From positions 1 through 50,135 of the forward strand of contig JAKACM010000025.1 in assembly GCA_021821465.1 (NCBI GenBank): 50,135 nt of DNA. The letters are read 5' to 3'. Source of the stretch: Bacillota bacterium. Lineage in GTDB: Bacteria; Bacillota; Sulfobacillia; Sulfobacillales; Sulfobacillaceae. Positions 10,338 through 30,658 of this stretch are shown here, one piece after another (within the stretch, counting starts at the first letter, position 1; each line of letters opens with the position of its first letter). The notes under the pieces were generated by a model that worked only from the letters and a program-made list of their open reading frames with translations, was not told the origin of the DNA and ran no database searches. Made by a program: the position numbers and the translations under genes.

Positions 10338-10481
10338 CAAAGAAATCCGCCTTTCAATATGATGTCCTGATGTGTCATCAGAAAAAAATACCCCCGAGGA
10401 ACAGTCAATCGAAAAACGAGGCTATGCCGTGTGAATAATACCCGATTGTAAGAACATCATACACAACATTTATTGTCTTGC

Positions 10482-17000: not shown

Positions 17001-19226
17001 TCTCCCGCCGGCGGCAGTGACACCTTTTACGTAACCCACGGATTTGGGTTTACTCGAATCGAAAAACGTACCGGAGAGTTGACCCACAAAATGGAGACCA
17101 TTGTCCCTCCTCACGACTCGGTAAAATTCATTCGATTGCAATTGCATAATCACTCGAAGCGGGCCCAAAAGATTGCCGTAAGTTATTATGCCCAGTGGGT
17201 TCTCGGAGTTCATTCGGAGCGTGAATCGCCGTTTGTCATCACATGGTGGGATGATGATGGCCAGATCTTAATGGCTCGCAATACCTATCAAGAGACCTTT
17301 CGCGACCAAATCGCCTTTTTGCATATGGCCGCACCCATAAAAAATGGTCACGATCTTTCGTGGACGGGAGATCGTGAGGAATTCATCGGTCGGGAAGGGT
17401 CCTTGGAAGAACCCGTCGCCTTAACGCAAGAACGTCTCTCCGGGCATGTCGGGGCTTTTCGCAGTTCGTGCGGAGCTGTGCAAAGGATCTTAGATCTACC
17501 GCCCGGTACCGATGTGAGCCTAGTGATCCTAATGGGATCGGCCCCATCATCCCTAATGGCCCGGGATATCGTGTCCCGTTTGGGTCATGAAACCCTATAC
17601 CAAGAAATTAAGCATCAAGTCACCCAAAACTGGAACAATGTTACTTCGCAAGTCAGTGTAAACACTCCGGAGCGTGCCATGGATCTGATGCTTAACGGCT
17701 GGCTTCTCTATCAAACATTAAGTAGCCGCCTATGGGCTCGTACGGCCTTTTACCAGGCCGGCGGCGCTTTTGGCTTTCGTGATCAACTTCAAGATGCACT
17801 TTCGCTCTTGCATGCCGACTCCTCCATAGCCCGGGATCAGATTCTATTACATGCCGCGCATCAGTATGAAGAAGGTGATGTCCAACACTGGTGGCATGAG
17901 GAAATCCACAAGGGCATTCGTACACGCATTTCGGACGATTTGCTGTGGCTGCCTTACGCCGTTATGCGTTATTGGGAACATACCCAAGATGTTGGCATTT
18001 TCAACATCACAGTCCCCTATCTCCACAGTTCTCCTCTTTCACAGGGCGAGAATGAGCGTTACGAAAACACTCAGATCTCGGATAAAACCGGTACCCTGCT
18101 CGATCATTGCTTGCGGGCAATCTTCCATGCCCTCCATTTTGGTCGGCATGGAATTCCCCTTATCGGGACCGGGGATTGGAATGACGGTATGAACCAAGTT
18201 GGATTGGAAGGTCGGGGAGAAAGTGTGTGGCTGGGATGGTTTTTAGTGGATGTCTTGAAGCGATTTGTGAACTTAAGCCGCAGCCATCCCGGGATGTTGA
18301 AGGTTGAAATGACAACACAATTCGAAGAGATCATAACCTCGCTGGAGACCCACATCAATCATTTCGCATGGGACGGAAAATGGTTTCGGCGAGCCTACAC
18401 GGACTACGGCAGATGGCTTGGCACAGAACAGGCCGAAGAAGGGCGGATAGACGCCATCGTTCAATCTTGGGCGGTGATTTCTCAAGGCACTTCAAAACTT
18501 CGACAACACAGGGCTATGCAGTCCTTTGATCGCGAATTAGTGGACCGAGATTGGCACCTGGCACGGCTATTAACTCCGGGTTTTGACCAAACCCCCAAGG
18601 TGGGATATATTCAGGCCTATCCTCCCGGCATTCGCGAAAACGGAGGACAATACACCCATGGTGCGGTATGGAGCATTATTGCCTGGACTATGCTGGGGCG
18701 AGAGGATAAGGCTTGGGAGTTATTTTCTCTCATGAATCCGATATTAAGAACAGCTTCTCCTTTCGCAATAGAACGTTACCAGAACGAACCTTATGTCATG
18801 TCCGCGGATGTCTACTCAGCCCATTGTTGCCCGGGACGGGCAGGTTGGTCATGGTATACAGGTTCCGCAAGTTGGATGTATCAAGCCGGCTTGGAAGCTA
18901 TTCTCGGAATTAAACGCCGAGGCCATCAGCTCTTCATTCAACCCTGTGTTCCTCGTAAGTGGCAGACTTTCACTCTGAACTACCGATTTCACAGTGCGAC
19001 ATATTGCATTGAGGTCAAATTTCATAATGCGAACCGGGCGGAAAGCCAGTGCGTCATTGACGGAGTGCAGCACACACACAATGGATACTTAACCTTGCTC
19101 GATGACGGGCTAACCCATAAAGTCACATTTTTCGCAAACCGGGGGCGAATCGCAAGAAGAGTTGCCGATTATCACCCTCGAAAAAAAGTGCTGACCTCGG
19201 GTTTTCCGAAGACTCCCACATCATAA
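11094..19226 (+). CDS. Cyclic beta-1,2-glucan synthase-like protein (GT84 + GH94)
   Basis: At 2710 residues it is close to NdvB/ChvB-type enzymes. Residues 1-380 are soluble and helical, followed by two or three membrane segments (about 384-450). A GT84 glycosyltransferase region follows, with VVMPVIWSQTEDVDDVIG (about 466), LTIDHDTILP (DxD-like, about 600) and RGDWQLLPWLG (about 756). More membrane helices lie at about 796-950. A glycoamylase-like module has GVYGFYEALDF and FMAHHQGMSL (about 1306-1340), and two sugar-binding-like regions follow. The C-terminal GH94 phosphorylase domain carries YQAGGAFGFRDQLQD (about 2216), GTGDWNDGMNQVG with the acidic catalytic residue (about 2360) and YPPGIRENGGQYTHGAVW (about 2507). 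It should make and process a beta-1,2-glucan at the membrane; cyclisation is not provable here. The ribosome site GGGAGG is strong. Confidence 0.9.
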   Translation: MRRNNTQLRIQARELALRNDVITRHPRTHRFWHAFKRDMLSLQSFAVHLSRTRVLCAQSAEDWLVDHIAFIQVQSQALVRQMPRRVFQRLPLLREQRMPRIYAICDDYLKHTEGHYDPLSFEQYLEAYQEVSVLTTLECWLFPAMMRLVIIRRLAENMQEVRLRHEACARVNAVLTPFKLSSPSHKAISAALNDMVRKRNLSSAEVVHLVRHLNEWEPEMTIVRDWLSTYVDSRHMNLEALASFERQFASHLQVIVGDLVTSLHAVERQPWYNTFVKISRVDKIFREDFHSGYSRLDRSSQDLLRNQVEKIANRLHLPETLIAQRAIDMAQSMRKGTPIHGGNETHRHAHPAYYLLDPQGIRQLLKDLSRTKHSGWHPALTVRLHAFPAYALSLTVLFMGLMVAASFWITHGSTFRDCSWIIILVILSLPVSEWALTLVHMAIMRGYPTRLLLRYDFSTRVPGEARTMVVMPVIWSQTEDVDDVIGRLEVHFLANRQPHIHFAILADFEDRHTETTPEDQKLVTYALSQVNRLRQKYGSDRFFLLHRSRRFNPSEGVFMGWERKRGKLVELVELLSGHYDTSFTTIHGNTEIFRDIHYVLTIDHDTILPIGAVARLIGTIHFPYNRPRLNAKGSRVIEGFGLLEPRIAVSYDAAHRSLLGAIWAGEPGIDPYTMALSHPYQNLFGEATFVGKGIFDVQAFLKTVVERVPDNAVLSHDLLEGGFLRTGLTPDIEVIEDHPSSFYSYQRRSDRWIRGDWQLLPWLGPWYQNRRGRPEQVDLSPLTRWQIFDNLRRSLVAPALFLIALFSLSILPGHPDVWEEVVLLTLFLPLLQAALGNLWRGVRWKQIKLATAQSLVQFMTLPFIAIGNMMAIWLTLYRLLVSRRHLLEWVPASKTNRGKDYHIFIYEPQGKIAIVLFGAWAWWVTSPRDHVIGTILPAIWLLSGVVIRYMSRPLTVNESQWIQTAKPELASWAQQIWSFFEHYVTEEESWLPPDNVQFLDNEVISHRTSPTNIGLYLASVVAARDLDFIDTPLLIKLLDSTLETLMVMEKWHGHLFNWYDTQRAKPLEPRYVSTVDSGNFVAYLMVVQRSLLERRQSESSWARPIHVLEEKIEQLIAGTDFRVLFSADEHLFTIGYSVNRNQRDSTLYDLLASESRQTSFIAIALGQIPVSHWFALGRPMSVFSGRKTLLSWSGSMFEYFLPHLILRTYKPSLWDSTCRGAVDRQRQYAAQWEVPFGISESGYYSFDYQWNYQYHAFGVPGLGMDPHLDEDLVVAPYATIMALPYANRHALNSLAQLETLGAKGVYGFYEALDFTRRRLPPGDACQVIQSFMAHHQGMSLLTLVNLLRQNVMIERMHREPHVRAADLLLQEKVPDNAAITSVPLGLAAGPDPMANPLEKAFRRFNTIDTTAHINTASNGRLTSVIEDDGSGFLRFRGIDVTRWRPDPLISTSGQAVYLHDVETDQTWSVSRYPTRRESAIETTFRVNHTHFEGRYQALTWQLDVTVHPDLNAEIRKLTISNESQEMRTIEITSFLELSLARPQSDQAHSAYSKLFVETFYDPDQECLFAHRRSGPQEKMSLWAGHRMYISKQATPYEFETDRGQFLGRNHTLAAPQAINRPLTESQGAVGDPAFIMRRRIKMRPGESLDLYFVTAVGESRAQVSEIIQWLKEPSQVEQGFRLAAMRSHIDLHYMALTADQALDAQDLASCLLFPAPLSKLRQDAIAQNSLSQSGLWSLGISGDIPIVVVSLANFADMPFVTLLARQLSYLEKLGTVSADLVILQESEHSPQDTLEELKNRIKARGTDTIGHITAFQASKLPREITILLRAAAMVWLNARGPRITTQLHKRHDHPLIRGISHRSRNKTPKVSHDKITGEFFNGRGAFVEDGRAYHLTVQKSRPLNRPWSNVLANPAFGTLVTELGTGYTWGKNAREFKLTPWSNDPILDPPGECLYLRDLDTQKLWSATPSPAGGSDTFYVTHGFGFTRIEKRTGELTHKMETIVPPHDSVKFIRLQLHNHSKRAQKIAVSYYAQWVLGVHSERESPFVITWWDDDGQILMARNTYQETFRDQIAFLHMAAPIKNGHDLSWTGDREEFIGREGSLEEPVALTQERLSGHVGAFRSSCGAVQRILDLPPGTDVSLVILMGSAPSSLMARDIVSRLGHETLYQEIKHQVTQNWNNVTSQVSVNTPERAMDLMLNGWLLYQTLSSRLWARTAFYQAGGAFGFRDQLQDALSLLHADSSIARDQILLHAAHQYEEGDVQHWWHEEIHKGIRTRISDDLLWLPYAVMRYWEHTQDVGIFNITVPYLHSSPLSQGENERYENTQISDKTGTLLDHCLRAIFHALHFGRHGIPLIGTGDWNDGMNQVGLEGRGESVWLGWFLVDVLKRFVNLSRSHPGMLKVEMTTQFEEIITSLETHINHFAWDGKWFRRAYTDYGRWLGTEQAEEGRIDAIVQSWAVISQGTSKLRQHRAMQSFDRELVDRDWHLARLLTPGFDQTPKVGYIQAYPPGIRENGGQYTHGAVWSIIAWTMLGREDKAWELFSLMNPILRTASPFAIERYQNEPYVMSADVYSAHCCPGRAGWSWYTGSASWMYQAGLEAILGIKRRGHQLFIQPCVPRKWQTFTLNYRFHSATYCIEVKFHNANRAESQCVIDGVQHTHNGYLTLLDDGLTHKVTFFANRGRIARRVADYHPRKKVLTSGFPKTPTS

Positions 19227-19254
19227 AAAAGGAGCCGAAGAAAATTCGGCGTCC
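19225..19254 (-). terminator. Rho-independent terminator of the sulfur-oxidation cluster
   Basis: On the minus strand GGAcGCCGAA-ttttc-TTCGGCtCC (19254-19231) forms a stable stem followed by TTTTTT (19230-19225). It sits about 65 nt after the stop of the GAF gene and just after the stop of the convergent glucan synthase gene. Confidence 0.8.
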
Positions 19255-19318
19255 TTGTGAAAGCCGTCGTCCCCCTCGTCCTCTCGACTGGCACTGAAGG
19301 GGGAAAAACACTTTTTGT

Positions 19319-19771
19319 TCAACTGAGCGCCTGGGCAACTTCTCCCAGCCATTCTATCGCCTCCAGGTTCATGCCGTCGACTTTCGGAGACTGGCAATCC
19401 AGCACGGCATAGACATGACTCTGGCGTATGATTGGGAGCGAGACTTCCGAGTGTGTCTGCGGAACCGCCGCAATATAACCCGGAAATTTCTTAATCGACC
19501 CCACAATTTGCACGGCCCTCTCTGCAGCACAAGAACCGACAACTCCCTCTCCCCAGGCAATAATTAAAGGAGAAGGAGGGCCGCTAAACGGCCCCACCAT
19601 TAAATCTTGACCCAAATGCCGAACACGATAAAATCCAATCCAGGTCCACTCAGGCCATAAGAGGCGGATTTGCGCCACAATATTGGCCATAATCGCCACA
19701 TCCTCCGGACCTTGGCGTGCCCATATGCGGATTTCTGCCAATGCAGATCCCCAATCCCTGTTTTCTTTCAT
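19319..19771 (-). CDS. GAF-domain protein related to free-Met-R-sulfoxide reductase, catalytic Cys missing
   Basis: The 150-residue protein is one GAF domain with the fRMsr/YtsP layout: WTWIGFYRVRHLG, LMVGPFSGPPSP, WGEGVVGSCAAE, KKFPGYIAAV, HSEVSLPI and VYAVLDCQSPKVD. In active enzymes three Cys lie in 'PAC', 'GVCG' and 'IACD'. Here these are PSP, GVVG and IAAV, so reductase activity is unlikely; a nearby Cys in GSCAA is not in a known catalytic position. It may be a ligand or redox sensor. The ATG at 19771 is chosen, with GAGG 6 nt upstream. It is the last gene of the cluster, 11 nt after dsrE. Confidence 0.8.
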   Translation of the reverse strand: MKENRDWGSALAEIRIWARQGPEDVAIMANIVAQIRLLWPEWTWIGFYRVRHLGQDLMVGPFSGPPSPLIIAWGEGVVGSCAAERAVQIVGSIKKFPGYIAAVPQTHSEVSLPIIRQSHVYAVLDCQSPKVDGMNLEAIEWLGEVAQALS

Positions 19772-19782
19772 TTTTCGCCTCA

Positions 19783-20163
19783 CTAAAAGCTTATGACCAC
19801 CTGGGACTCCAGTGCCATGTCATTCACGGCGCTGCCTCCTACCACTCCTTCGGTTTCGATGAGATCCTCCAAAGTACAGTCATTCAAGTCGAGACTGGGG
19901 GCACAGACATAGAATTTGACACCGGCTTCGCGAGCCTGGTCAATAAAAAATTGCAGTCGGGCACCATCGCCCCCTTCTTTAACCGTCAGTTCCTCGGCCA
20001 CTCCGTGCTTTAACAACTGAGTCGCACGGATCGTAAAAACCATCGAGACATCATGATCCATCAGAGCGGCTGTAGTTGCCAAGAAGAACGGAGATGCCGC
20101 TCGATACGAAACTTCCGGTCCCGTCGTAAGAATGTACAAGAATTTTTTGGCCTCTGAAGACAT
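19783..20163 (-). CDS. dsrE: DsrE-family sulfur carrier / sulfurtransferase
   Basis: This 126-residue protein begins KKFLYILTTGPEVSYRAASPF and shows the DsrE/DsrF fold with the conserved Cys in VKFYVCAPSLDLND, plus a second Cys six residues on. DsrE3A-type proteins next to tusA and shdr genes carry sulfane sulfur in the cytoplasm and exchange it with TusA. The start at 20163 follows AAAGGAGG ideally; the upstream in-frame ATG at 20184 would place the ribosome site inside the gene. The order tusA-dsrE and its position after lbpA fit sulfur delivery to sHdr. Confidence 0.88.
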   Translation of the reverse strand: MSSEAKKFLYILTTGPEVSYRAASPFFLATTAALMDHDVSMVFTIRATQLLKHGVAEELTVKEGGDGARLQFFIDQAREAGVKFYVCAPSLDLNDCTLEDLIETEGVVGGSAVNDMALESQVVISF

Positions 20164-20187
20164 GCAATTTCCTCCTTTCGACAACCG

Positions 20188-20436
20188 CTATTTGGTCCGA
20201 CGAATCATAAAACGAAAGACTTCACCCTCTTGTTCAGCAAGCAACAACTCGTGTCCGGTGGACTTGCTCCATGCCTTAAAATCCGCCATGGATCCCGGGT
20301 CCGTACTGAGAATTTCAACGATCTGGCCTATTTCAACACCCATAATGCCTTTTTTGGCTCGAATGACGGGCATCGGACATTTGAGTCCGGAAGCATCAAC
20401 TTTGAGATCGGCTTCAATAGGAGTATTCATCTTCAT
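20188..20436 (-). CDS. tusA: TusA-family sulfur carrier protein
   Basis: An 82-residue TusA/SirA-type protein with the sulfur-binding motif LKCPMPVIRAKKGI (Cys at about residue 19) and the later TDPGSMADFKAWSKSTGHELL. It accepts persulfide sulfur on the CPxP Cys and hands it to DsrE and probably to the sHdr/LbpA machinery. ATG at 20436 follows AAAGGA. A gap of 247 nt separates it from lbpA upstream and holds no gene. An internal promoter there is possible, but I see no convincing boxes. Confidence 0.92.
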   Translation of the reverse strand: MKMNTPIEADLKVDASGLKCPMPVIRAKKGIMGVEIGQIVEILSTDPGSMADFKAWSKSTGHELLLAEQEGEVFRFMIRRTK

Positions 20437-20683
20437 GACACATCCTTTCAAAAATGATTAGGATAACCTGTGTGCTCGTTCCGATTCTTTTCACACCCGG
20501 GACCGGATTGGAAAAGGCCGCCTAAGATTATGAATTCACTTCTCAAAAGGTCTTCAGCCTGGGTCATCCACTCAAAAGGGAAAGCCATCCCGTCTCGATT
20601 TCTCACGCCAAGCTGTCATCTCCCACGCTGGGGGTCATACCTACTCTACTCCAAATTGTAGACAAGACCCCACTCTCTTCTCT

Positions 20684-21166
20684 TCAAAATGCGTCGTTGA
20701 AGCGTTCCGGCGAATCACTATCCACAGGCTCACAGCGTATACACGTAATGCCTTCGTCTTTCAGCTTATTCCGGTAAAAAGGAGCCACATCGACCCCTTT
20801 GATCAAGTGTGGACTGGGCCACGACGTGCCGGCCCGAAACTCAACGATCCATCCTTCACCGTAAGGATCTCGGTTGATGATGTTGGGATCGGCCGACACC
20901 TTCTCGTTAACCCCAACGATACTCCCCTCGAAAGGAGCCGGAAAGGGGCCAACCCATTTGGCGGATTCGATGGTTGCGACGTTTTTTCCTTCTTTAACCG
21001 TCTTGCCCGCCTTAGCCCGCACATGCAGGATCCGTCCGGACCGGGTTTGGGCCGGATCCGTCATCCCCAAGCGCAAAACCCCGGACGGAAGAGGAAATAT
21101 CCAAACATCTTTGTCCACATCAAACCAAAAATCGTCGGGGAATTCACAAGCAAAAACCTGCGCCAC
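20684..21166 (-). CDS. lbpA: Lipoate-binding protein, GcvH-like (second copy)
   Basis: This 160-residue protein resembles the glycine-cleavage H protein. DVWIFPLPSGVLRLGMTDPAQ is followed by GKNVATIESAKWVGPFPAPFEG, where the Lys of ESAKW is the predicted lipoylation site (about residue 69), and then DPYGEGWIVEF. A C-terminal extension of about 50 residues, YRNKLKDEGITCIRC, ends in extra Cys. No glycine-cleavage genes are adjacent; the sHdr context makes it an LbpA, in which lipoate is thought to carry the sulfur being oxidised. GTG start at 21166 with a G-rich ribosome site. It is 15 nt from the first lbpA. Confidence 0.88.
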   Translation of the reverse strand: MAQVFACEFPDDFWFDVDKDVWIFPLPSGVLRLGMTDPAQTRSGRILHVRAKAGKTVKEGKNVATIESAKWVGPFPAPFEGSIVGVNEKVSADPNIINRDPYGEGWIVEFRAGTSWPSPHLIKGVDVAPFYRNKLKDEGITCIRCEPVDSDSPERFNDAF

Positions 21167-21181
21167 GAAAGCTCCCCCCCT

Positions 21182-21619
21182 TTATTGGGCACATTTTATG
21201 CCGTCTTGTTGAAGTTTTTCACGGTAGGATTGGACCCCCTTCTCGCCGGTGGCCAGGAGGATTTTGTCCTCCTCCCAATTTGATGGCTTGATTTTTAACA
21301 GCCAACCCTGGCCGTACGGATCGTCATTAACCAGACCGGGATTGGCCTTCACGGCCTGATTGACCTCTATCACCTCCCCTGCCACAGGTGTCGGAATGGA
21401 TCCGACCCATTTTCCGCTCTCCAAAGTCCCCCCACTCTTGCCACGAGCCAAGGTTTTCCCTGTTGCCTTTAAATTGACCACGATGATCTTGCCCGCTAAA
21501 CTTTGAGCGACATCGGACAAGCCGATCAACACCACGGTCTCCTCTGATTTCACCCAGACGTGCTTTTCAATCCAGTAGTACAAATTCTCCGGAATATTGC
21601 ATCCTTCCACTTCGGCCAT
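21182..21619 (-). CDS. lbpA: Lipoate-binding protein, GcvH-like (first copy)
   Basis: This 145-residue H-protein-like LbpA has HVWVKSEETVVLIGLSDVAQ, GKSGGTLESGKWVGSIPTP with the predicted lipoyl-Lys in ESGKW (about residue 71), and DPYGQGWLLKI. The C-terminus YREKLQQDGIKCAQ parallels the second copy and also keeps a Cys. Known LbpA proteins are dedicated to sHdr sulfur oxidation rather than glycine cleavage. The ATG at 21619 follows GGGGAG. The two copies differ enough to be old duplicates. No lipoate-protein ligase or LipS-type gene is in the window. Confidence 0.9.
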   Translation of the reverse strand: MAEVEGCNIPENLYYWIEKHVWVKSEETVVLIGLSDVAQSLAGKIIVVNLKATGKTLARGKSGGTLESGKWVGSIPTPVAGEVIEVNQAVKANPGLVNDDPYGQGWLLKIKPSNWEEDKILLATGEKGVQSYREKLQQDGIKCAQ

Positions 21620-21638
21620 TATCTCCCCGCCCTTTCGA

Positions 21639-23636
21639 TCATTTTACGGCCACGGCAGATTCCGGAACACTCAGTCCGACTGCTTGGGCCAAAAGTTCCG
21701 CGACGTCCACGACTTTAATACGGTCTTCGCTGCCGGTTGTTTGCACGGCTGCCGAAAACATGGACATATCCTTGGGACACGCCACGACAAAATAGTTCAC
21801 ATTATCAAGCGTCAACGCCTCCCGGATCCGGTTGTCGGCCGGTCGCTCCTTAATCCCCACTTCCTCCATCCATATCCGTCCGCCTCCCGCTCCACAACAA
21901 AAACTGTTGGCACCATGACGAGGCATTTCCACCAGCTCGACTCCCATCTTCGTCAACAATTGACGGGGAGCTTCAAATACCCGGTTCCAACGCCCTAAAT
22001 AACAAGGGTCGTGATAAGTGACACGAATAGACAGGGGTGAGGGGGAGAGCCGGCCTTGTTCGATCAGGTCCAAAAACGCTTGGGTGTAGTGCCTTATCGG
22101 CTTTTCAAATCCCAATTTGCCATACTCGTTGCGCAGTGCGTTAAAAGAATGGGGATCGGTGGTAAAGATCTGGTTATATTCCGCTTTGTCCAGCCACTTG
22201 AGATTTTTTTGAGCCAAGGTCTCAAATAACCCGAATTCCCCCATACGTAACGCTTCGTTCCCGGCATTGACTTCACCTTCGTACAAAATGCCAAAATCAA
22301 TTCCGGCTTGTTGCAAAATTTGGGCCACCAGTCTTGAGAGTTCTTGCAAGCGGGGATCATAGGAGGCAAAGTCTCCGACAAACCACAACCAGTCTATCTT
22401 TTCCTTGCGTGCATCTTTAATCGGTGTATCCAAAGCTTTAGTCCAAGACGGACGTTTGCGGGGCGGCTGCCCGAAGGAGTTGCCTTGACGATCCCAGCCC
22501 ACTAACACCTTTTGACTGTTTTTGTCGACTTCCCCCTCTTCCATCAACGCCGCCCTCAATCCGGCGATTTTGGGAACATGTTCAATAAATACCGGACACG
22601 CCTCTTGACATGCACCGCAAGTGGTGCAAGACCATAATTCCTCGGCCTTAACAACTCTCCCGGCCAAAGGTTCGACTTCTTCACCTCCGAGTTCCCGGCG
22701 TAAAGCATCCCGCAACTCCAAAATAACCATTTTGGGAGACAAGGGCTGACCCGCGGCATAAGCGGGGCAAACCGCCTGACACCGGCCACATTCCGTGCAG
22801 GTGAACAGATCCAAGACATCTTTCCAGTTCATGTCACTAAATGTCTTAATGGCCATCGCCTCCTCCTCTTTTAAGGGAGGCACCAACTCTCCGTGAGGAC
22901 GCGTTTTGTGAAGAAAAATGCTGGGGACAGCCAAAAAGATGTGCAAATGCTTAGATGTCGGCAAATAAGCCATGAACATAAACACCATGCCGATATCCAA
23001 AAGATAGCCCAGAATGTATCCCCCCTCTGCCACCGAGACGTTAGAGGCTACGTGGGTTGCTATCCACAAATGCCCCAATTCATATCCCACAAATCCCCAG
23101 GGGTTCAGGGTGGCATGGACATGAAATAGATAGGGGGATGCAAAAGGATAAAAGGATTCATGGAGAAAGATCCCGATCATAATCACCGCGATCATCCCCA
23201 AAATGAGGTAACCGTCTCTTTCGTCGGATCCATGATAGCGTTCCGGTTTCACGACGACCCGTTGGTAGACCGCCAAAACAATCCCCACCAACACAAGCAG
23301 TGCCCACAAATCGACCACAAAAGCCAGAGGTGCGTCCAAAGTGACATGGGGATCGAAAATCTGGGCAATAGCCGACACCACATCAATCAACAGCACCACA
23401 AATCCGCTGAAGATAAAGAAATGAAGTATCCCGGATAACCGAAGCCGCAATAAGCGTTTATGCCCAAAGACCTGGCCCAGCATGAAGCTGAGCCGTTTGG
23501 GCCAGTGGTCTAAGCGGTCGGTGGAGCGGGCCTTTTGCATCACTCGAAAAATAGGGAGCATTCGATAGACGAAGTATCCCGTCGCCGCCAAAAACATGAG
23601 GATGGTTAAGAGCACCAAAATGTCTTGACCGATCAC
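21639..23636 (-). CDS. emo: Membrane ETF:(methyl)menaquinone oxidoreductase-like Fe-S protein (EMO type)
   Basis: A 665-residue fusion. Residues 1-250 hold about six membrane helices with a NarI/cytochrome b-like pattern. Two [4Fe-4S] motifs follow, CTECGRCQAVCP (about 279) and CTTCGACQEACP (about 337), then a two-part HdrD/GlpC-like region. The second CCG part is complete (DPCYLGR about 541, CCGAGGGR about 580). The first lacks its Cys: it reads GEVNAGNEALR where the sister fusion protein at 25390 has EEKCAGDSQR. Proteins of this type take electrons from EtfAB and reduce menaquinone. Directly behind etfA (1 nt gap), it should link cytoplasmic sulfur oxidation to the respiratory chain. Confidence 0.85.
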   Translation of the reverse strand: MIGQDILVLLTILMFLAATGYFVYRMLPIFRVMQKARSTDRLDHWPKRLSFMLGQVFGHKRLLRLRLSGILHFFIFSGFVVLLIDVVSAIAQIFDPHVTLDAPLAFVVDLWALLVLVGIVLAVYQRVVVKPERYHGSDERDGYLILGMIAVIMIGIFLHESFYPFASPYLFHVHATLNPWGFVGYELGHLWIATHVASNVSVAEGGYILGYLLDIGMVFMFMAYLPTSKHLHIFLAVPSIFLHKTRPHGELVPPLKEEEAMAIKTFSDMNWKDVLDLFTCTECGRCQAVCPAYAAGQPLSPKMVILELRDALRRELGGEEVEPLAGRVVKAEELWSCTTCGACQEACPVFIEHVPKIAGLRAALMEEGEVDKNSQKVLVGWDRQGNSFGQPPRKRPSWTKALDTPIKDARKEKIDWLWFVGDFASYDPRLQELSRLVAQILQQAGIDFGILYEGEVNAGNEALRMGEFGLFETLAQKNLKWLDKAEYNQIFTTDPHSFNALRNEYGKLGFEKPIRHYTQAFLDLIEQGRLSPSPLSIRVTYHDPCYLGRWNRVFEAPRQLLTKMGVELVEMPRHGANSFCCGAGGGRIWMEEVGIKERPADNRIREALTLDNVNYFVVACPKDMSMFSAAVQTTGSEDRIKVVDVAELLAQAVGLSVPESAVAVK

Positions 23637-23637
23637 T

Positions 23638-24588
23638 CTACTCCCCCCTTAACCTTTCTGTTAAGGCCGGCATCAAATCTAACATATCCACCGTGCTCCC
23701 ATAATGGGCAATGTCCATCATGGATGCGTTTTCATCGGTGTTCACGGCAATAATCAGATCGGCATCCTTCATTCCTTGCTGATGCTCCGGAGCTCCCGAA
23801 ATACCAAACGCCATATATACTTTCGGTTTTACCGTTTGCCCGGATTTTCCGACCTGACGGGATTTAGGCAACCATCCGGCATCCACCACCGGCCGCGAAC
23901 AACTGAGCACGCCTCCGATAGCCTCTGCCAGTTCTTCGGCCAAGGGTAAATTATCGGGATTGTCTATTCCCCGCCCGACACTGACCAAAATCTCCGCCTT
24001 GGTAATGTCCACATCGCCTTTTTCCGGTTCAATCAATTGCAAAATCTTCATACTTGAGGGGAGATCCAAAGACATCCGGTCGATTGGGGGATCCCCTCGG
24101 TCGGTATCCTGAGGCCATTGACCGGGCATGACACTGATCACGGCACCAGACTCTGGCACAACGATTTCCGCCATCAGCTTGCCGGCAAAAACTGAAGATG
24201 TTGCCAGTACTTCCTGGCCCTCAACCGACAATTGACTGCAATAGGCTATCAACGGCAAAGAAGCACGTGCGGCCAAACCCGCTCCCAGATCCATGCCCAT
24301 GGTGGTATTTGCCACTAAGGTTAAAAACGGTTGGTCCTTTTGTAAAACTTGGGCCAGGGCCTTTTCATAGGCTTCGGGATGGTATTGCGTCAATTCCGGA
24401 TTGGACACAGCTATGACCCGGTCTACGGAAAGACCTTTCAGATTTTTTTCGGCCTCGCTCCCAAAGCCTATCGCGACCGATGACATCCCGAGGGCCTTGG
24501 CTATGTCTTTGGCTTTTGCGATAAGTTCTTTGCTGGAATCAACAAAACCGCCTGTCCCGTTTTCCATCACAACCAGTATGGATCCCAC
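23638..24588 (-). CDS. etfA: Electron transfer flavoprotein, alpha subunit
   Basis: The 316-residue EtfA binds FAD in its C-terminal domain. Visible are ILVSVGRGIDNPDNL, SCSRPVVDAGWLPKSRQVGKSGQTVKPKVYMAFGISG (the conserved SR..vd.gw....qVGqtGk.v.P.lYia.GiSG region) and IIAVNTDENASMMDIAHYG. It pairs with EtfB and shuttles electrons between the sHdr complex and the EMO-like protein. GTG at 24588 is the start: the last codons of etfB (AGG AGG TAG) form its Shine-Dalgarno site, 7 nt away, so translation is coupled. Confidence 0.92.
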   Translation of the reverse strand: MGSILVVMENGTGGFVDSSKELIAKAKDIAKALGMSSVAIGFGSEAEKNLKGLSVDRVIAVSNPELTQYHPEAYEKALAQVLQKDQPFLTLVANTTMGMDLGAGLAARASLPLIAYCSQLSVEGQEVLATSSVFAGKLMAEIVVPESGAVISVMPGQWPQDTDRGDPPIDRMSLDLPSSMKILQLIEPEKGDVDITKAEILVSVGRGIDNPDNLPLAEELAEAIGGVLSCSRPVVDAGWLPKSRQVGKSGQTVKPKVYMAFGISGAPEHQQGMKDADLIIAVNTDENASMMDIAHYGSTVDMLDLMPALTERLRGE

Positions 24589-24593
24589 AACAT

Positions 24594-25367
24594 CTACCTC
24601 CTCAACAAGTTTCGCTCTTGAAGAATCTCAATGATCCGCCCCGCCACTTCTTCCGCATCTCCATCGATCATCTCTGCATGGCCCGAAACAACCGGTTTAT
24701 AAAAACGACGCACCGTCAAAGCCGGTACTTCCGCCGGCTGGGTTTCGACTTCTTCAATCTGACGGCTTTTGGCAATCTGCCGCACTTTGGCAATGGAGGC
24801 ATAACGGGGAGGCTTGCGGGCGGCTTGAATACCCACGATGACAGGGGTGGCACCTTCGATTTCGGCTATCAGCCCTCCCGCGTATTCTTGGCGCAAGACA
24901 ACCCCCTGCCCCTTAACCTTGACTTCGGTGACCACGGAAGCATGCGGCCATCCCATAAGGCCCGCAACCAAGCCGGGAATCTGCCCATCGACGTCGTCTA
25001 TGGCCTGGACTCCCGACAAAACCAAATCAAATGACCCTTCGCGCACATAGTCGGCGAAAATTTGCGCCCGTTGCCGATTCGTTAACGAAGAATCATAATC
25101 ACCTGTCAACTTCACGGCTTGATCGGCACCTTTGGCCAGTGCTGTAAAAAGCATATTGTCGCTGTCTTGCGTGCCATCAATGGCAATGGCAGTGACTTCC
25201 GCCTCTGATTCTTCTTTTATCAACAAAGCTTCCTCGAGAGCCTGATCATCCCATTCACTGGGCACATAGGTCATTTCATCGAAGAGTATTTGGCCCACCT
25301 CTTCATCCAGCGCAATATCCTCTACCAGATCCGGCACCGACTTCATTAAGACTGCAATGCGCAACAT
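24594..25367 (-). CDS. etfB: Electron transfer flavoprotein, beta subunit
   Basis: This 257-residue EtfB begins MLRIAVLMKSVPD and has MTYVPSEWDDQALEEAL, FDLVLSGVQAIDDVDGQIPGLVAGLMGWPHA and the signature-like stretch around GATPVIVGIQAARKPPRYASI. It binds AMP or FAD and forms the heterodimer with EtfA. It lies between the fused shdrC2B2 gene and etfA with short gaps and has a strong AAGGAGG ribosome site. This position, absent in sHdr clusters without Etf, argues that sHdr electrons are passed to ETF here. Confidence 0.92.
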   Translation of the reverse strand: MLRIAVLMKSVPDLVEDIALDEEVGQILFDEMTYVPSEWDDQALEEALLIKEESEAEVTAIAIDGTQDSDNMLFTALAKGADQAVKLTGDYDSSLTNRQRAQIFADYVREGSFDLVLSGVQAIDDVDGQIPGLVAGLMGWPHASVVTEVKVKGQGVVLRQEYAGGLIAEIEGATPVIVGIQAARKPPRYASIAKVRQIAKSRQIEEVETQPAEVPALTVRRFYKPVVSGHAEMIDGDAEEVAGRIIEILQERNLLRR

Positions 25368-25389
25368 CGTCTTGTTCCTCCTTGTCCGC

Positions 25390-26673
25390 CTAATTGGCCA
25401 TGACTAACGAATCCACGAGTCCCATCGAATAAGCCAGTAACTCTGCGATATCCATCACCGCCAGTTTGCCGGCATTTCCCGTGGACTTTACCGCATCTTC
25501 AAAGCGCGGCACTTCATAAGGGCACGTTACCGCCAAAATATCCGCGCCATATTCCACGGCCTCTTTGACCCGACGTTCCGAGAGCCGTTCACTGGCATAA
25601 TCCCGGGTGAAACTGTCGAGCCACATGCCCCCTCCGCCACCCCCGCAGCAGTATGAGCTCTCACGGCAATGGCCCATTTCTATCAAATCCACTCCCGGCA
25701 GGGCCTTTAAAAGCTGACGGGGTGCCTCATATTCTCCGTTGTGCCGTCCCAAATAGCAGGGGTCATGAAATGTTACCCGATAAGGGATCTCGTGGGTACA
25801 ACGGATGTCCGTCAGACGTTCGGACAAATATTGGGTATAGTGTTTGACAGCGTACTGCCCTCCAAATTTGGGATACTCGTGAAGAAATGCATTGTAGGCA
25901 TGAGGATCTGTCACCACAATCTGATTAAAGGAGTATTTGGACAACATCTTAATGTTGTGCTCGGCCAGCATCTCAAAGAGACCATGCTCCCCTGCCATGC
26001 GCTGGGAATCGCCTGCACATTTTTCCTCGTTTCCCAAGATGCCAAAGTCGACATTCAGCGCATCGAAAATGCGGGCCAGAGCGGACGACGCCTCTTTGCC
26101 ACGGGGATGATACGAAGGATAGCATTCCACAAACCACAGCACATCGACCGGTGCCTTTTTCTGAGACATGATGGAAATCGGTACACCCGCAGACTTCGTC
26201 CACTCTGCGCGCTTTTTAGGGGGATCCCCAATAGGATTACCGTAGCGCGCCGTATTTTCGAACGCTTGCAGCAATTCCTCGGGAGCATTTCCCTCCAACA
26301 CCGCTTTTTCTCGAACTGCCGGCATAATGTCAATCATATTCACTTCTTTAGGGCAGACTCGAAGGCAATTTCGGCAGGTTGTGCATAACCATAAGTCCGG
26401 AGAGTCCATAAGAGAAATGCCCAGTTGTGTGCGGCGAAAGATTTTTCGGGGAGAATAGTCCCCCACCGTGTCTACCGGGCACACTCCGGTGCATTTCCCG
26501 CACTGATAGCAATATCCCAAGGATTCGGCCCCCGGAATGGCAGTGATTTCATCCAGGACCGAAAGATCATATTCCGATATGGTTCGTGGCTCAAACATGC
26601 GATTCCAGGATCCTTTTAGTTCAACCCCGTTAACCACAGCCACGTCCAATTCAATCGCTTTCGCTTTTTGCAA
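25390..26673 (-). CDS. Fused sHdrC2-sHdrB2-type subunit (also called sHdrB3 type)
   Basis: A 427-residue HdrC-HdrB fusion. The N-terminal ferredoxin part has CYQCGKCTGVCPV (about 54) and CTTCRNCLRVCPKE (about 97). The C-terminal part has two CCG domains: ECYPSYHPRG with EEKCAGDS, and FHDPCYLGR (about 302) with SYCCGGGGGGMW (about 341). CCG domains in HdrB bind the non-cubane [4Fe-4S] clusters that carry out disulfide chemistry. Start TTG at 26673, with GGGAGGGG 7 nt upstream; it overlaps the end of the preceding gene by 23 nt, which implies coupling. Clusters with this fusion plus etfAB and emo correspond to the second sHdr type. Confidence 0.88.
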   Translation of the reverse strand: MQKAKAIELDVAVVNGVELKGSWNRMFEPRTISEYDLSVLDEITAIPGAESLGYCYQCGKCTGVCPVDTVGDYSPRKIFRRTQLGISLMDSPDLWLCTTCRNCLRVCPKEVNMIDIMPAVREKAVLEGNAPEELLQAFENTARYGNPIGDPPKKRAEWTKSAGVPISIMSQKKAPVDVLWFVECYPSYHPRGKEASSALARIFDALNVDFGILGNEEKCAGDSQRMAGEHGLFEMLAEHNIKMLSKYSFNQIVVTDPHAYNAFLHEYPKFGGQYAVKHYTQYLSERLTDIRCTHEIPYRVTFHDPCYLGRHNGEYEAPRQLLKALPGVDLIEMGHCRESSYCCGGGGGGMWLDSFTRDYASERLSERRVKEAVEYGADILAVTCPYEVPRFEDAVKSTGNAGKLAVMDIAELLAYSMGLVDSLVMAN

Positions 26674-27364
26674 CGCTGTACCCCTCCCATCTTCCAATCC
26701 CTAGTAAATTGGCCACCACTTTCGGAAAAGGGGGCAAGACTTGAGTAAATTCATCGGTTAAACGCCACGATGCCAAGGTAAAAAGATAGACTGCATAGAC
26801 CATTGCCAAGCCAACCATATGACGATAGGGCGAATCAATGAGAGAAGGACGATGCCATCCCTCGAGTACCTGTTCCGCAAAACGGCCTGCCTGAAGAATT
26901 TGTGCATATAAAGGACGTAATGGCACCATTAAGCAATGGGGATCTGTCAGCACCAAGGCTATTGCCCCGGTCTTGCTATCCGCGCGGTACATCCAGCGCG
27001 ACCACCACACATACTCTTCGGGATAAGCGTTGGCAAGCCAAAATGTTCCCCACTCCCAGAGCCACGGTGGCGCATCGAATCGGGCTAAAATTTCGATGAC
27101 CTGCTCGGGGTTATTGTCTTCCACGGCCTCCCGGATGGGAGTTTCAACCTTCTGCCATATCTCTTTTTGTTCTGATTTGATACGGGCCGTTGACGGGACC
27201 ACGCGCAGACATTGATCGGAATCACGCAGAGGCAGAAAGATCTTTTGGGAGCGACGGGTTAGCACTTTGTTCCAATACTCGTATTCCTCATGGGAGACCA
27301 TGGATTCCCCTTTATCCAGAAATTCAGCCATGGCCTGGGCATCAATCACTGGAGCTGTCATCAC
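26651..27364 (-). CDS. Conserved hypothetical protein of sHdr clusters (sHdrH-like)
   Basis: A 237-residue protein with no cofactor motif that I can see. It is Trp-rich (WLWEWGTFWLANAYPEEYVWW) and otherwise helical. In published sHdr clusters a gene of this size and place, between shdrA and shdrC2/B2, is labelled 'hyp' or H and is conserved but of unknown role. It overlaps the end of shdrA by 4 nt (ATGA) and the start of the fused subunit by 23 nt, so it is made together with them. It is probably a structural or assembly partner of the complex. Confidence 0.75.
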   Translation of the reverse strand: MMTAPVIDAQAMAEFLDKGESMVSHEEYEYWNKVLTRRSQKIFLPLRDSDQCLRVVPSTARIKSEQKEIWQKVETPIREAVEDNNPEQVIEILARFDAPPWLWEWGTFWLANAYPEEYVWWSRWMYRADSKTGAIALVLTDPHCLMVPLRPLYAQILQAGRFAEQVLEGWHRPSLIDSPYRHMVGLAMVYAVYLFTLASWRLTDEFTQVLPPFPKVVANLLGIGRWEGYSVAKSESD

Positions 27365-28419
27365 ACATGCAAGGCGGAGCGGTTTAAAACACCGACCGCT
27401 TTGGCCGCTGCCGCCGCTCCCATGGAAACGGAATCCTCGATATCTTTAGGCCCGGCAGCGGCGCCCGCCACAAAAATTCCCGCCACAGGTGTGGATACCG
27501 TATCCAAAGGCCCGCCCACAATTTGGAGAAACCCATGCTCTTCCCGCGGAATCTGAAGAACGCGGGACATTTCGATGGTGCCCTTCGAAGCTTCCATCCC
27601 CACAGATAAAATAACCAGGTCCATCAATACCTCCATAGGTCGCCCCATTGTGGTATCTTCGCCTTTCACCAGTAACTTGTCGCCTTTTTTGATCACTTCG
27701 GTCACGATTCCGCGAACGTAATTGACCTTATATTCCTCTTGTGCCTTCCAGTAAATCTGGTCTTCCCAAAAGCCATACATCCGCATATCGATATAGAAGA
27801 TAAAAACTTTGGCATTAGGCAGCATCCGCTTAATTTCTATCGATTGTTTGGATGCAATGCCGCAGCACACCTTAGAACAGTATTTGTTACCGATTTGGCG
27901 ATCTCTGGACCCGACGCACTGGATAAAGGCCACCTTTTCGGGGGGTTCTTTGGTGGAGGGACGGACAACTTTTCCTTCTTTGAACATTTTTTCGGCATCG
28001 ACCAAGGTGATGACGTCATCATATTCATAATATCCGTACATCTGAGTTTCCCGGCCGGGATCAAAATGTTGAAAACCTGTCGCCACCACAATGGCCCCTA
28101 CGTCTTCCGCAACTTCCGTCCCGTCATGGGACAAACTCACATGAAAGGATCCGCTTGTTCCTTCGCTTTTCACAACTCGGGTATCGAGCCTCACATCCAC
28201 GGCCGGATTTTTCCGTACTGCCTCCAACATATGTCTCATACTTTCTTCCGTGTCTTTTAAATCCGGCGTCAAGGTGGCATAAGAGGCATAAGGCGTACCG
28301 CCTAATTCTGTTTTAGCCTCTACCAATAGCGCTCGCTTTCCCAATTCCGCCACCGTTCTCGCTGCTTCCAACCCGGCCGGTCCTGCTCCGACAATCAATA
28401 TGGTATCCGCGTTTGCCAT
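27361..28419 (-). CDS. shdrA: sHdrA, FAD-binding HdrA-like subunit
   Basis: The 352-residue HdrA-like flavoprotein starts ADTILIVGAGPAGLEAA (dinucleotide-binding GxGxxG, about 11). It has GAIVVATGFQHFDPG, the HdrA signature FIQCVGSRD (about 169), NKYCSKVCCG (about 183, Fe-S or Cys motif) and the FAD-binding end GIFVAGAAAGPKDIEDSV. It is shorter than methanogen HdrA because it lacks the ferredoxin insert, as expected for sHdrA. It should be the flavin hub of the complex. It is separated from shdrB1 by 29 nt. Confidence 0.92.
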   Translation of the reverse strand: MANADTILIVGAGPAGLEAARTVAELGKRALLVEAKTELGGTPYASYATLTPDLKDTEESMRHMLEAVRKNPAVDVRLDTRVVKSEGTSGSFHVSLSHDGTEVAEDVGAIVVATGFQHFDPGRETQMYGYYEYDDVITLVDAEKMFKEGKVVRPSTKEPPEKVAFIQCVGSRDRQIGNKYCSKVCCGIASKQSIEIKRMLPNAKVFIFYIDMRMYGFWEDQIYWKAQEEYKVNYVRGIVTEVIKKGDKLLVKGEDTTMGRPMEVLMDLVILSVGMEASKGTIEMSRVLQIPREEHGFLQIVGGPLDTVSTPVAGIFVAGAAAGPKDIEDSVSMGAAAAAKAVGVLNRSALHV

Positions 28420-28448
28420 CTGTTCGATCCCTGCCTTTCCCCTCTAAG

Positions 28449-29648
28449 TTAGAGAACGTGTTCCCACGTCAAAAACTCCATTTCCCCTTGTTTCACTTTG
28501 TCGACATCTGACTGAAATTCCGACCACGCCTGATCAACATCGATACCCATTTTTTCGAGAAGAGGTCGGTAATCTACCGAATGCCAATGGAGTTGCGTCA
28601 CTCGGAAAGGGTGAGCTCCCAAGGCCAGGGCAGCAAACTGAGATTCCGACATCACGGGCACGCCCACATTCTTACCATGAGCTTGGGCCGCAAACTGGCT
28701 TTTATCCAGTGAGGTCACACATCCGGTATCGTGTGTTAGCACGACATCGGGATTGGCTTCTTGCTTCATCACTTCGATTTTGCGAATGGTGGCGAAGCTG
28801 CGGGTAAAGTCGCGTTGCACCAAAATATGCCGAAACCCAAATCCACAACAGTCATACCAAGTGGAATAATCGGCAACGTTAGCACCCAAAGCCTGAACCA
28901 CTCCGGTCACCGCGGCCGTGCGTTGCCCGCCGTAAATTTCGGGATCATAAATGGCGTCACCCGTTTGCAATTTGTAGTAGTGACAGGCGGGATGAACTGT
29001 GGCTGTAATCCCTGACACATCTAATTGACGCCGCTTTTCCAGCTCTTCTCTTACGGCATACATCCATTCACTGTAGTGCACGATTTCTTCCGGCATCACA
29101 AACGGCCGTCCCAGCTTTTCAATGATGGCGCGAACTTGACGGCGCAACTTCGCGTCATGCACCAATTCATGGCGCACTTCTTTGTAATGGCCAAAACTCG
29201 TTCCGCAATGGATCAAAGGGAAATATCCCGTTTCGTAAGCGGCAGAAAAGTTTCGCATCGCTACCGCCGCTTGTGCGGCTTGGTTGGAGGTGGCGGACGC
29301 ATAATAATTCCAAGCAGTGCAGGAAGTTTGATCGCGAGGGTCGAAGTAGTCATATCCCAAGAGCCGATTCAGCCAAAAGATTGAGGTGGAATAACCGGGA
29401 ATGTGTCCGCATTGTCCGCAACTCTTGTGATGCCAGGTGTGTTCCAAGGGAATTTTCTTGAGCCGTCCGTATTTTGTAGGAGCGCTATAATAGGGCTTTG
29501 GAACCGGCTGAACAATCCATTCACCTTCACGACCCAGTTCCCATATAGCTTCCCGGAGATCCTCATCATGAACACTCTCGGGATCCCGCTCGAATTTCCG
29601 GGATGTTTCAACCTTCGTTCCGTTAACCCGTACATCCATTGATTCCAT
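28449..29648 (-). CDS. shdrB1: sHdrB1, HdrB-like CCG-domain subunit
   Basis: A 399-residue HdrB-like protein, longer at the N-terminus than methanogen HdrB (about 300). The first CCG part has HKSCGQCGHIPGYS, TSCTAWN and LIHCGTSFG. The second has TVHPACHYYKLQTG, YDCCGFGFRHIL and LTHDTGCVTSLD. These Cys sets are expected to bind a non-cubane [4Fe-4S] cluster at the sulfur-processing site. The start at 29648 follows AAAGGAGG by 8 nt. It lies 33 nt after shdrC1. Confidence 0.92.
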   Translation of the reverse strand: MESMDVRVNGTKVETSRKFERDPESVHDEDLREAIWELGREGEWIVQPVPKPYYSAPTKYGRLKKIPLEHTWHHKSCGQCGHIPGYSTSIFWLNRLLGYDYFDPRDQTSCTAWNYYASATSNQAAQAAVAMRNFSAAYETGYFPLIHCGTSFGHYKEVRHELVHDAKLRRQVRAIIEKLGRPFVMPEEIVHYSEWMYAVREELEKRRQLDVSGITATVHPACHYYKLQTGDAIYDPEIYGGQRTAAVTGVVQALGANVADYSTWYDCCGFGFRHILVQRDFTRSFATIRKIEVMKQEANPDVVLTHDTGCVTSLDKSQFAAQAHGKNVGVPVMSESQFAALALGAHPFRVTQLHWHSVDYRPLLEKMGIDVDQAWSEFQSDVDKVKQGEMEFLTWEHVL

Positions 29649-29681
29649 CGTGCTTAACCTCCTTTTGAGTTTGACGAATGG

Positions 29682-30368
29682 CTATTCCGCGATCAGGCCG
29701 CTTTCTTCCAGTGCATCGTCCATAATCTCCTCCATGATGTCATGGAGTCCTTGGTCAAGCTCCCCAATCATGTCGAGAGTACCGGTCATTTTCCAAATCG
29801 CGTAGAGTTCGTGCATCGTCCGCTCCTCCACCTGCCAAGACAGTCCGGTGGTATGCAAGGTTTCCGGCGGAAGCACACGCCGCCAAACGTCCAAATTGTC
29901 GGATACGGCTTTGACCTGGGGTCCCCAATCAGGAAAGGCATCTTCTTGCAACATGTCGGGGGATACCTGTGTACCGGTTGTCATAATCTTGTAAATAATC
30001 CGGGTATAACCTGCTAAGGCCTCTTTTGTGGTGCGAAGACCATTTTTAACCGCTACTTCACGCATTACGGTAATGAGTCCGCCGGGGCTGTTTTGTCTGG
30101 GGCAGCGATTGCAAGAAAAACACTGAGAACAATTCCACACATCGTCATTTAATTGCTCGTAAAAAAGTTCGACATCTTCCCGTGCCAAAGTTTGGGTGAT
30201 CTTGCGGGGGGAAAAATCGTAAAACCGCGCCGAAGGACAAGCAGCCACACAAATTCCACATTCATAGCATCCATACAGATACGTCTCGTACCGTGCATCT
30301 GCCTTGACCTCGTCAAACAATCGTTGCTTTTCTTCCAATGCCACGTCAGTGTACCGATCAGAGGGCAT
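29682..30368 (-). CDS. shdrC1: sHdrC1, ferredoxin-like HdrC subunit (first gene of the cluster)
   Basis: A 228-residue HdrC-type protein. The first cluster motif CYECGICVAACP (about 33) is canonical. The second, CSQCFSCNRCP (about 78), has Cys spacings of 2, 2 and 2 rather than 2, 2 and 3. The rest is helical with an acidic C-terminus. It should pass electrons between sHdrB1 and sHdrA. The ATG at 30368 follows AAGGAGGT by 6 nt. Upstream lies a 500-bp intergenic region shared with a divergent hypothetical gene. Confidence 0.92.
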   Translation of the reverse strand: MPSDRYTDVALEEKQRLFDEVKADARYETYLYGCYECGICVAACPSARFYDFSPRKITQTLAREDVELFYEQLNDDVWNCSQCFSCNRCPRQNSPGGLITVMREVAVKNGLRTTKEALAGYTRIIYKIMTTGTQVSPDMLQEDAFPDWGPQVKAVSDNLDVWRRVLPPETLHTTGLSWQVEERTMHELYAIWKMTGTLDMIGELDQGLHDIMEEIMDDALEESGLIAE

Positions 30369-30629
30369 TATCGTACCTCCTTAGCCTGTCTAGCTGAAGA
30401 ACACAAACGCACATGCCGTCCCTCTTTATGGGCCGATTTGTAAAGTCCTCGGGACCGAAAACAAAGAAGGAAGCAGTTTATCTACGGAATGGATACCGAC
30501 CATGAACCCCATTACTTCGTCATCGAATTCCGGAATGGTTCCAAGTATTCAATCTGCCGCATCAGTCGTCGCCCAAGAGGACAAGTCTCAGTCATCCTTT
30601 TGTACCATCACAAGTAATGATCGGAATAA

Positions 30630-30658
30630 ACTATAGATGAGCCTCTTGTATATGACAG
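30630..30658 (-). promoter_or_regulatory. Candidate promoter of the sHdr cluster
   Basis: On the minus strand CTGTCA (30658-30653) and TATAGT (30635-30630) are 17 nt apart, which gives a leader of about 255 nt before shdrC1. Each box has mismatches to consensus. The surrounding 30369-30892 interval holds no gene and is AT-rich toward the divergent hypothetical gene. No sHdrR/ArsR-type operator was recognised. Confidence 0.3.

Follow-up and report, generated by a model that had tools for sequence, protein, structure and literature searches.

How does the sHdr system of sulfur oxidation hand on its electrons? To our knowledge, this is an open question of microbial sulfur oxidation. It is raised by a gene cluster in a 50,135-nt stretch of DNA (hereafter the window; contig JAKACM010000025.1 of the 4.96-Mb assembly GCA_021821465.1) from a member of the Sulfobacillaceae related to bacteria of acid mines, in which shdr genes stand beside genes for an electron transfer flavoprotein (ETF) and a membrane ETF:quinone oxidoreductase (EMO). 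Thirteen open reading frames, all on the - strand, run from position 30368 to 19319 in the order shdrC1, shdrB1, shdrA, hyp, B3, etfB, etfA, emo, lbpA1, lbpA2, tusA, dsrE and a GAF-domain protein gene. This is the arrangement that the original prediction, made from the DNA letters, had described, and Pfam places 12 of the 13 proteins in the expected families (their NCBIfam matches all fall under the curated cut-offs). The genes present and the order in which they stand, their co-occurrence elsewhere, conserved residues, predicted folds and the clades of the proteins make it probable that sHdr systems of this type, known as type II, have a dedicated electron exit that leads from B3 through EtfAB and EMO to menaquinone.

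The cluster is of a published type. Type II sHdr has been defined as shdrC1B1AHB3 with etfAB (PMC11582611). In the window, shdrC1, B1, A, H and B3 lie in one syntenic cluster that also contains etfAB. Judged by its genes this is a type II system, and the fused gene of the window would be the B3 of that definition. The same gene set and linkage have been described as 'Group III', with two or three LbpA genes (Cao 2018, PMC6067878); the window has two. All Sulfobacillus genomes carry an hdr cluster II with etf genes and a longer hdrC (Justice 2014, PMC4378227), and contigs of two of them, AMDSBA1 and AMDSBA4, are among the loci compared here (L090, L092). The long hdrC product, with six transmembrane helices and CCG domains and encoded beside etf, fits EMO, although the accessible text of that paper does not call it an ETF:quinone enzyme. 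Thermomicrobium roseum has a 19-gene cluster with hdrABC, etfAB, three lbpA, tusA and two dsrE, which is on average 45-fold up during persistence and for which ETF was proposed as a possible link to the respiratory chain; emo is unnamed in the accessible text (PMC6776052). Therefore, the suggestion that the layout is novel does not hold, since linkage of hdr-like genes and etfAB has been in print since 2014 and 2018. What is added here is the constant presence of EMO, the apparent EtfD nature of B3, the probable kinship of the exit module with DgcB and the loss of a ligase gene, lplA, in the window. The type II definition, in its accessible part, names etfAB and not emo. A literature search that covered few subscription-journal papers found none that states any of these four points and none that pairs sHdr or ETF with EMO.

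Is the tie between shdr, etfBA and emo peculiar to the window? Among at least 558 confirmed shdrB1 relatives in named genomes, the best 80 were surveyed, and every locus that could be typed is type II. By record title they come from Bacillota, Chloroflexota, Actinomycetota, Bacteroidota, Calditrichota, Gemmatimonadota, Rokubacteria and Deltaproteobacteria bins; nearest among the 80 are TL1-4.bin53, a Bacillota bin with 96% identity in shdrB1, and AMDSBA1 of Sulfobacillus benefaciens with 94%. B3 is present in 67 of 67 loci with at least 3.6 kb of DNA after shdrB1, both etfB and etfA in 55 of the 57 that extend 3.0 kb or more beyond B3, and EMO in all 49 that run at least 400 nt past etfA. The EMO matches were repeated with trimmed queries, with self-hits excluded and with only the DNA behind etfA; a few of the 49 are short starts cut by the end of the locus. 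Ten loci had seemed to lack EMO (L115, L127, L135, L140, L143, L148, L149, L153, L157 and L166). Seven of them end less than 400 nt behind etfA, and the start of EMO was recovered in L127, L143 and L149.

Two loci miss etfBA. The sequence of L158 stops 4.5 kb behind B3, a distance at which etfB would only just begin, its start lying 4.5-5.1 kb from B3 in nine related loci. L108, from Chloroflexi CSP1-4, has other genes behind B3, the next being, as judged by eye, a sulfate adenylyltransferase-like frame. Another contig of the same genome (L203, G429) carries the end of a B3 gene followed by etfB, etfA, emo, lbp and lbp, which rules out L108 as a counterexample.

The family gives the same picture. 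Of 34 genomes sampled, 22 have a type II shdrB1 (at least 81% identity to that of the window) and 10 a type I shdrB1. Cluster-type EMO (at least 61% identity) is found in 21 of the 22 and in none of the 12 without type II shdrB1; the single miss, G428, is cut by a contig end. In one of the 12, G420, B3 and two lbpA stand on a contig of 3.5 kb, and the assembly yielded neither shdrB1 nor cluster-type EMO. In the window genome, a separate EMO and the only EtfA besides that of the cluster are both on contig C64. The position of the trio is not fixed. In two family genera and in Alicyclobacillus, etfBA-emo lies between B3 and lbpA, and in the other family genomes it lies behind dsrE/GAF. Two gene orders with the trio kept indicate that etfBA-emo has changed place without being lost. 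Thus the membrane EMO is a constant member of the type II sHdr set, and this is new as far as the literature search shows. The claim that shdr, etfBA and emo belong together as one unit is borne out by their joint conservation across type II loci, and a search of these loci for relatives in which they never co-occur found none.

Some loci depart in detail. In L066 (G415), from a close relative, shdrA is split at about 10162-13947 by some 3.8 kb of inserted DNA, with the surrounding genes up to emo present. In G404, a further EMO of the cluster type, with 63% identity, is encoded on a short contig (C103:1631-3442, L175) in addition to the one in the cluster.

What is B3? The shdrB3 gene (25390..26673, - strand) begins at a TTG codon at 26673 and had been described as a fusion of C2 and B2. 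The C-terminal half does not fit this description. The N-terminal part of B3 aligns with type I C2 from its start with an hhalign score of 147, including an extension of about 50 residues before the first cluster, and it scores 147 against the dicluster domain of EMO as well. The C-terminal half scores 615 against EMO, whereas against type I B2 it scores 52 over 75 columns. A true fusion of C2 and B2 is thereby rejected, since the match to C2 covers only the N-terminal 120 residues or so and the remainder is not B2-like. B3 would thus consist of a C2-like N-terminal extension, a dicluster ferredoxin and a CCG half of EtfD/EMO type. In keeping with this, the best match of the B3 model (pLDDT 87.9) is EtfD (E 1.1e-25, TMq 0.76, 429 columns, 30% identity), with LutA and HdrB behind it.

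The residues of B3 suggest what it might do. The alignment has 93 rows, 82 of them distinct (21 from the family and 72 from 69 named loci, including three qmo-side copies). Cys581 and Cys584 are absent from 93 of 93 rows, Cys503 and Cys538 are each present in 55, and each of the 92 rows readable at position 712 has Glu there, giving a CPxE motif. The noncubane sites of HdrB are each closed by a bridging Cys that can be displaced (PMC13083937); by motif order it would correspond to position 712. B3 therefore does not have the full CCG sites that mark HdrB-type catalysis, in which the last CxxC of each site retains both Cys. In contrast, type I B2 keeps ten Cys in nine of nine sequences, enough for two full CCG sites. 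With these ligands lost, B3 looks like a protein that relays electrons rather than one that carries out disulfide chemistry. B3-like genes are not confined to the main cluster. Upstream of the type II cluster, L106 (8491-9717), L116 (7630-8835) and L157 (6419-7675) have a second B3-like gene together with HdrA-like genes, a set that is presumably qmo-like. In the tree these copies group with B3. B3-type subunits may have a role in the sulfite/sulfate branch too.

The emo gene (21639..23636, - strand) would encode a 665-aa DgcB-type membrane ETF:quinone oxidoreductase with heme b, two cubane clusters and one modified CCG site as predicted centres. Its only strong solved relative is EtfD of M. 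smegmatis (PDB 9ojn, E 1.5e-92), which is also the best fold match of the EMO model (E 1.6e-36, TMq 0.88). EMO sequences were aligned in 65 rows (20 family and 45 named, 55 distinct) and read against the ligand assignments of EtfD (PMC13083937). The heme ligands His78 and His241, the quinone-site residues Phe85 and Phe230, Arg137 and Arg306 are invariant in 65 of 65 rows. The cubane Cys are kept in every readable row, and Arg150 varies. EMO thus has two cubane [4Fe-4S] sets as well as the EtfD fold. The conservation of heme-b and menaquinone residues makes quinone, as the predicted electron acceptor of the cluster EMO, well supported by the anatomy of the protein, and an ETF-oxidizing, menaquinone-reducing enzyme is its predicted role.

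EMO and EtfD differ in the noncubane sites. All four Cys that bind the linear [3Fe-4S] cluster D1 are replaced in EMO (D, N, D, S): among readable rows, Asp stands at 503 in 63 of 63 and at 581 in 60 of 60, Asn at 538 in 60 of 61, and Ser, Thr or Ala at 584 in 60 of 60. The second CCG site retains Cys637, Cys672, Cys673, Cys709 and His583, but where EtfD has Cys712 all 53 readable rows have Asp. EMO also adjoins shdr, whereas EtfD serves beta-oxidation. The linear-cluster ligands are not general to the EMO/EtfD family, since FadF and DgcB are likewise without them, and ETF has been suggested to feed the second site directly (PMC13083937). By analogy, direct feeding of the second CCG site would fit the cluster EMO. 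The two other EMO-like proteins of the window genome (contigs C64 and C16) keep Cys503, 538, 581 and 712, that on C16 being without Cys584. Among EMO-like proteins outside sHdr loci (36 rows from 35 distinct genes, mostly of Bacillota), position 712 is Cys in 36 of 36 and 503 is Cys in 32.

Is the EMO residue pattern then a mark of sulfur oxidizers? It is not. DgcB-like proteins encoded on plasmids of Shinella, Cupriavidus and Paraburkholderia are 45-48% identical to EMO over 64-96% of its length. All three carry the residues of sHdr EMO (D/N/D/H/S and CPKD), which rules out a pattern restricted to sulfur oxidizers, and have etfB and etfA within 3 kb. In two of the three loci an old yellow enzyme (OYE)-type dehydrogenase gene lies upstream, in place of the shdr genes of the window. 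In midpoint-rooted trees, sHdr EMO, the DgcB-like proteins and one haloarchaeal protein form one clade (UFBoot 99) with the DgcB-like rows interleaved, and B3 with the qmo-side copies forms a separate clade (UFBoot 100). The EtfA tree agrees, setting 18 sHdr EtfA and three DgcB-linked EtfA apart from 23 others (UFBoot 100). This joint grouping of EMO and EtfA argues that etfBA-emo is, as far as sequences tell, a DgcB-type module rather than a beta-oxidation module. The label DgcB-type is taken from operon logic and from one statement in PMC13083937.

Put together, these observations suggest the following path. DsrE and TusA would hand sulfane sulfur to the sHdr core (C1, B1 and A) and lipoylated LbpA, and the core would oxidize it to sulfite, a step taken from other sHdr systems. 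Electrons would leave the core through B3, with its C2-like N-terminus and its likeness to the soluble half of an EtfD/EMO-type enzyme. B3 would reduce EtfAB, a DgcB-type ETF without key bifurcation residues. EtfAB would then carry the electrons to EMO, the soluble half of which has the fold of B3, and EMO would pass them by way of its two cubane clusters and heme b to menaquinone. Menaquinone pathways are present in all Sulfobacillus genomes (PMC4378227). The direction of electron flow, the partners and the substrate in this scheme are those that we infer for the cluster.

A type I cluster in the same genome offers a comparison. L058 (contig C2:9000-28900 of G000, the window genome) has C1, B1, A, Hyp, separate C2 and B2, LbpA, TusA, DsrE and an LplA-type ligase, and close by there is a frame for HMG-CoA reductase. 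Type I (C1B1AHC2B2) shares homologues of C1, B1, A and Hyp with the window, B1 being 55% identical. However, type I has C2 and B2 as separate proteins whereas the window has a single B3, the C-terminal half of which is not B2-like. Neither etf nor emo was found in the 19.9 kb of L058 read, and neither etfA, etfB nor emo in the nine type I loci of 10-20 kb that hold C1 to B2 (L058 and L081-L088); a tenth, L060, is cut off inside shdrA. The case for quinone as acceptor, reached through ETF, is accordingly valid for type II only. What if type I and type II are different enzymes altogether? In this scenario, B3, as the soluble half of a DgcB/EMO-like ETF dehydrogenase joined to a C2-like N-terminus, would have replaced the HdrC2-HdrB2 pair and its two intact CCG sites, EtfAB would shuttle between homologous docking faces of B3 (towards sHdr) and EMO (towards the membrane), all sulfur chemistry would reside in B1, A and LbpA, and quinone rather than NAD+ would be the acceptor wherever B3 occurs. 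We give this larger proposal an even chance.

Could the ETF do more than shuttle electrons? EtfAB and sHdr might form a bifurcating or confurcating module, with some electrons reaching NAD+ or ferredoxin. Hdr-type enzymes of methanogens bifurcate, and the four top PDB matches of EtfA (23638..24588, - strand, 316 aa, GTG start) are what we take to be large subunits of bifurcating complexes. However, the R140 Arg of the RPXFGG motif, the mutation of which abolished bifurcation in T. maritima EtfABCX (PMC10734219), is missing from all 18 sHdr EtfA checked, the aligned residue being Ser in the window and Ser or Cys throughout. Only the absence of this Arg is informative, since Arg also occurs in most EtfA outside sHdr: of 23 other EtfA from EMO loci, 21 have Arg in this column (L239 within a poorly aligned stretch) and two have Lys, and Arg is also present in two of three DgcB-linked EtfA. 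The RXGV motif of the small subunit mattered less in the same mutant study (PMC10734219). It is complete in none of 18 sHdr EtfB; its Arg is kept in 11 of them, though not in the window's, and therefore the motif says little on bifurcation. Thus sHdr ETF shows neither the RPXFGG Arg nor the RXGV of group 2 bifurcating ETFs. EtfB (24594..25367, - strand, 257 aa) is nearest to 1o94 (chain 1o94_C, an ETF beta subunit; 117 bits, the next match being 5ol2 with 72 bits), and EtfA groups with DgcB-linked EtfA. A bifurcating module is very unlikely.

Another possibility is that sHdr delivers its electrons to NAD+ or to some other soluble carrier, which may be the case in type I, and that etfBA-emo serves some other substrate, such as that of a methylamine or sarcosine dehydrogenase. 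Among the most similar EMO and ETF beyond sHdr loci, two do lie beside OYE-type dehydrogenase genes. However, the trio follows shdr in about eight phylum-level groups of the named survey and in two gene orders, within the family it is present or absent together with shdrB1, and domain searches of the thirteen genes found no further dehydrogenase. We regard a separate substrate as improbable. Least probable of all is a chain run backwards, with quinol as the electron source and a disulfide or sulfur compound being reduced by sHdr. In principle, Hdr chemistry can go both ways. A similar arrangement of etf and long hdrC is found in a sulfate reducer, but Sulfobacillus oxidizes sulfur (PMC4378227), LbpA is described as essential in oxidizing sHdr systems (PMC10332631) and B3 lacks a complete Hdr-type site.

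Several points weigh against an exit from B3 through EtfAB and EMO. EMO genes adjoin etf genes outside sHdr loci too, so this adjacency alone is generic and it takes the tie to shdr to make it specific. DgcB-like proteins of Proteobacteria are placed among the sHdr EMOs in the tree, which means that the EMO sequence is not specialized for sulfur. The electron-passing clusters of B3 and EMO are predicted from structure at 30% identity. The named loci, being the best 80 of 558, are all type II, and at least 11 of the 80 are the same contigs as family loci. Finally, the type I loci read all come from a single family, since a plasmid search beyond it for the B2 of type I gave one cyanobacterial match at 36%.

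The type II genes point to a conserved ETF and quinone oxidoreductase as the electron exit, and this module accompanies shdr in bins of Bacillota, Chloroflexota, Actinomycetota, Bacteroidota and further groups of the survey. If B3 is an ETF-docking relay, mechanisms worked out for type I are not simply transferable to type II. If it is a relay and not a second catalytic HdrB, the sulfur chemistry of type II is to be sought in B1, A and LbpA. For metagenomes, B3 with CPxE and EMO with CPKD, both beside shdr, could serve as a marker of quinone-linked sHdr.

The cluster had been called complete, but its lplA is gone. Of the 22 family genomes with type II shdrB1, 16 have a gene of LplA type (about 350-360 aa) within the cluster or next to it. 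In the 15 loci read it stands between lbpA2 and tusA, and in G415 it follows emo at a distance of about 1 kb; three of three tested match PF21948. In the window this position is a gap of 247 nt (20437..20683), in which a search for LplA found no match left. The gene is also absent from G409, G411, G412 and G402, of which G409 (E 0.002) and G412 (E 0.001) retain weak traces of it; the locus of G428 is truncated. Each of the five genomes without type II LplA has a type I cluster that brings an LplA of its own (45-50% identity). Among the 16 keepers, only G413, G414 and G415 have type I shdrB1, and G410 (61% complete) has a type I-like LplA. This distribution suggests that the type I ligase replaced type II LplA and took over lipoylation of type II LbpA. 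Four of the five losses fall within a single genus, so they do not all count as independent. The window genome also has two adjoining LplA/LipM-like frames (C199:59455-61852), 30-34% identical to type II LplA, which are possibly general lipoylation genes.

The remaining genes are all on the - strand. shdrC1 (29682..30368, 228 aa) would bind two [4Fe-4S] clusters. shdrB1 (28449..29648, 399 aa) encodes a CCG protein with eight Cys common to type I and type II, and shdrA (27361..28419, 352 aa) a FAD protein with conserved Cys 168, 181, 185 and 186 (CxGSRD...CSxxCC). The fourth gene (26651..27361, 237 aa, ATG start at 27361) is the H of shdrC1B1AHB3 by position; its product has no match in a Pfam search, and the gene is found again in 21 family type II loci. 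lbpA1 (21182..21619) and lbpA2 (20684..21166) encode GcvH-like lipoate-binding proteins, each with the lipoyl Lys kept in 20 of 20 family copies. tusA (20188..20436, ATG start) has its CPxP Cys. dsrE, with two conserved Cys, is given as its longest frame (19783..20184), and an ATG start lies behind AGGAGG at 20163. These TusA and DsrE Cys, like the four of shdrA and the eight of shdrB1, are kept in at least 90% of family rows. The GAF protein (19319..19783) has no Cys common to 90% of 10 relatives.

The junctions are partly as predicted. An ATGA overlap had been proposed between shdrA and the fourth gene; the junction instead reads TGATG if the ATG start is used and GTGA if the start is GTG. 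The overlap of 23 nt with B3 is real if the B3 frame begins at its TTG, behind GGGAGGGG. The end of etfB could indeed serve as a ribosome site, since AGGAGGTAG sits at the expected position for etfA, with GTG at 24588. The first ten genes, shdrC1 to lbpA2, are tightly packed. The 247 nt between lbpA2 and tusA mean that tusA, dsrE and the GAF gene may form a separate transcript. Scans of both strands from 19000 to 31000 gave 16 promoter sites (11.2 +/- 3.7 in shuffles) and 15 terminator sites (13.6 +/- 4.0), both close to the shuffles. Two neighbours of the cluster may be mentioned. A 2710-aa frame on the + strand (11094-19226), which we take to resemble cyclic glucan synthase, ends just downstream of the GAF gene. 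On the other side, 32726-34327 encodes an HMGL-like and LeuA dimer domain protein, an enzyme of the citramalate or isopropylmalate synthase type.

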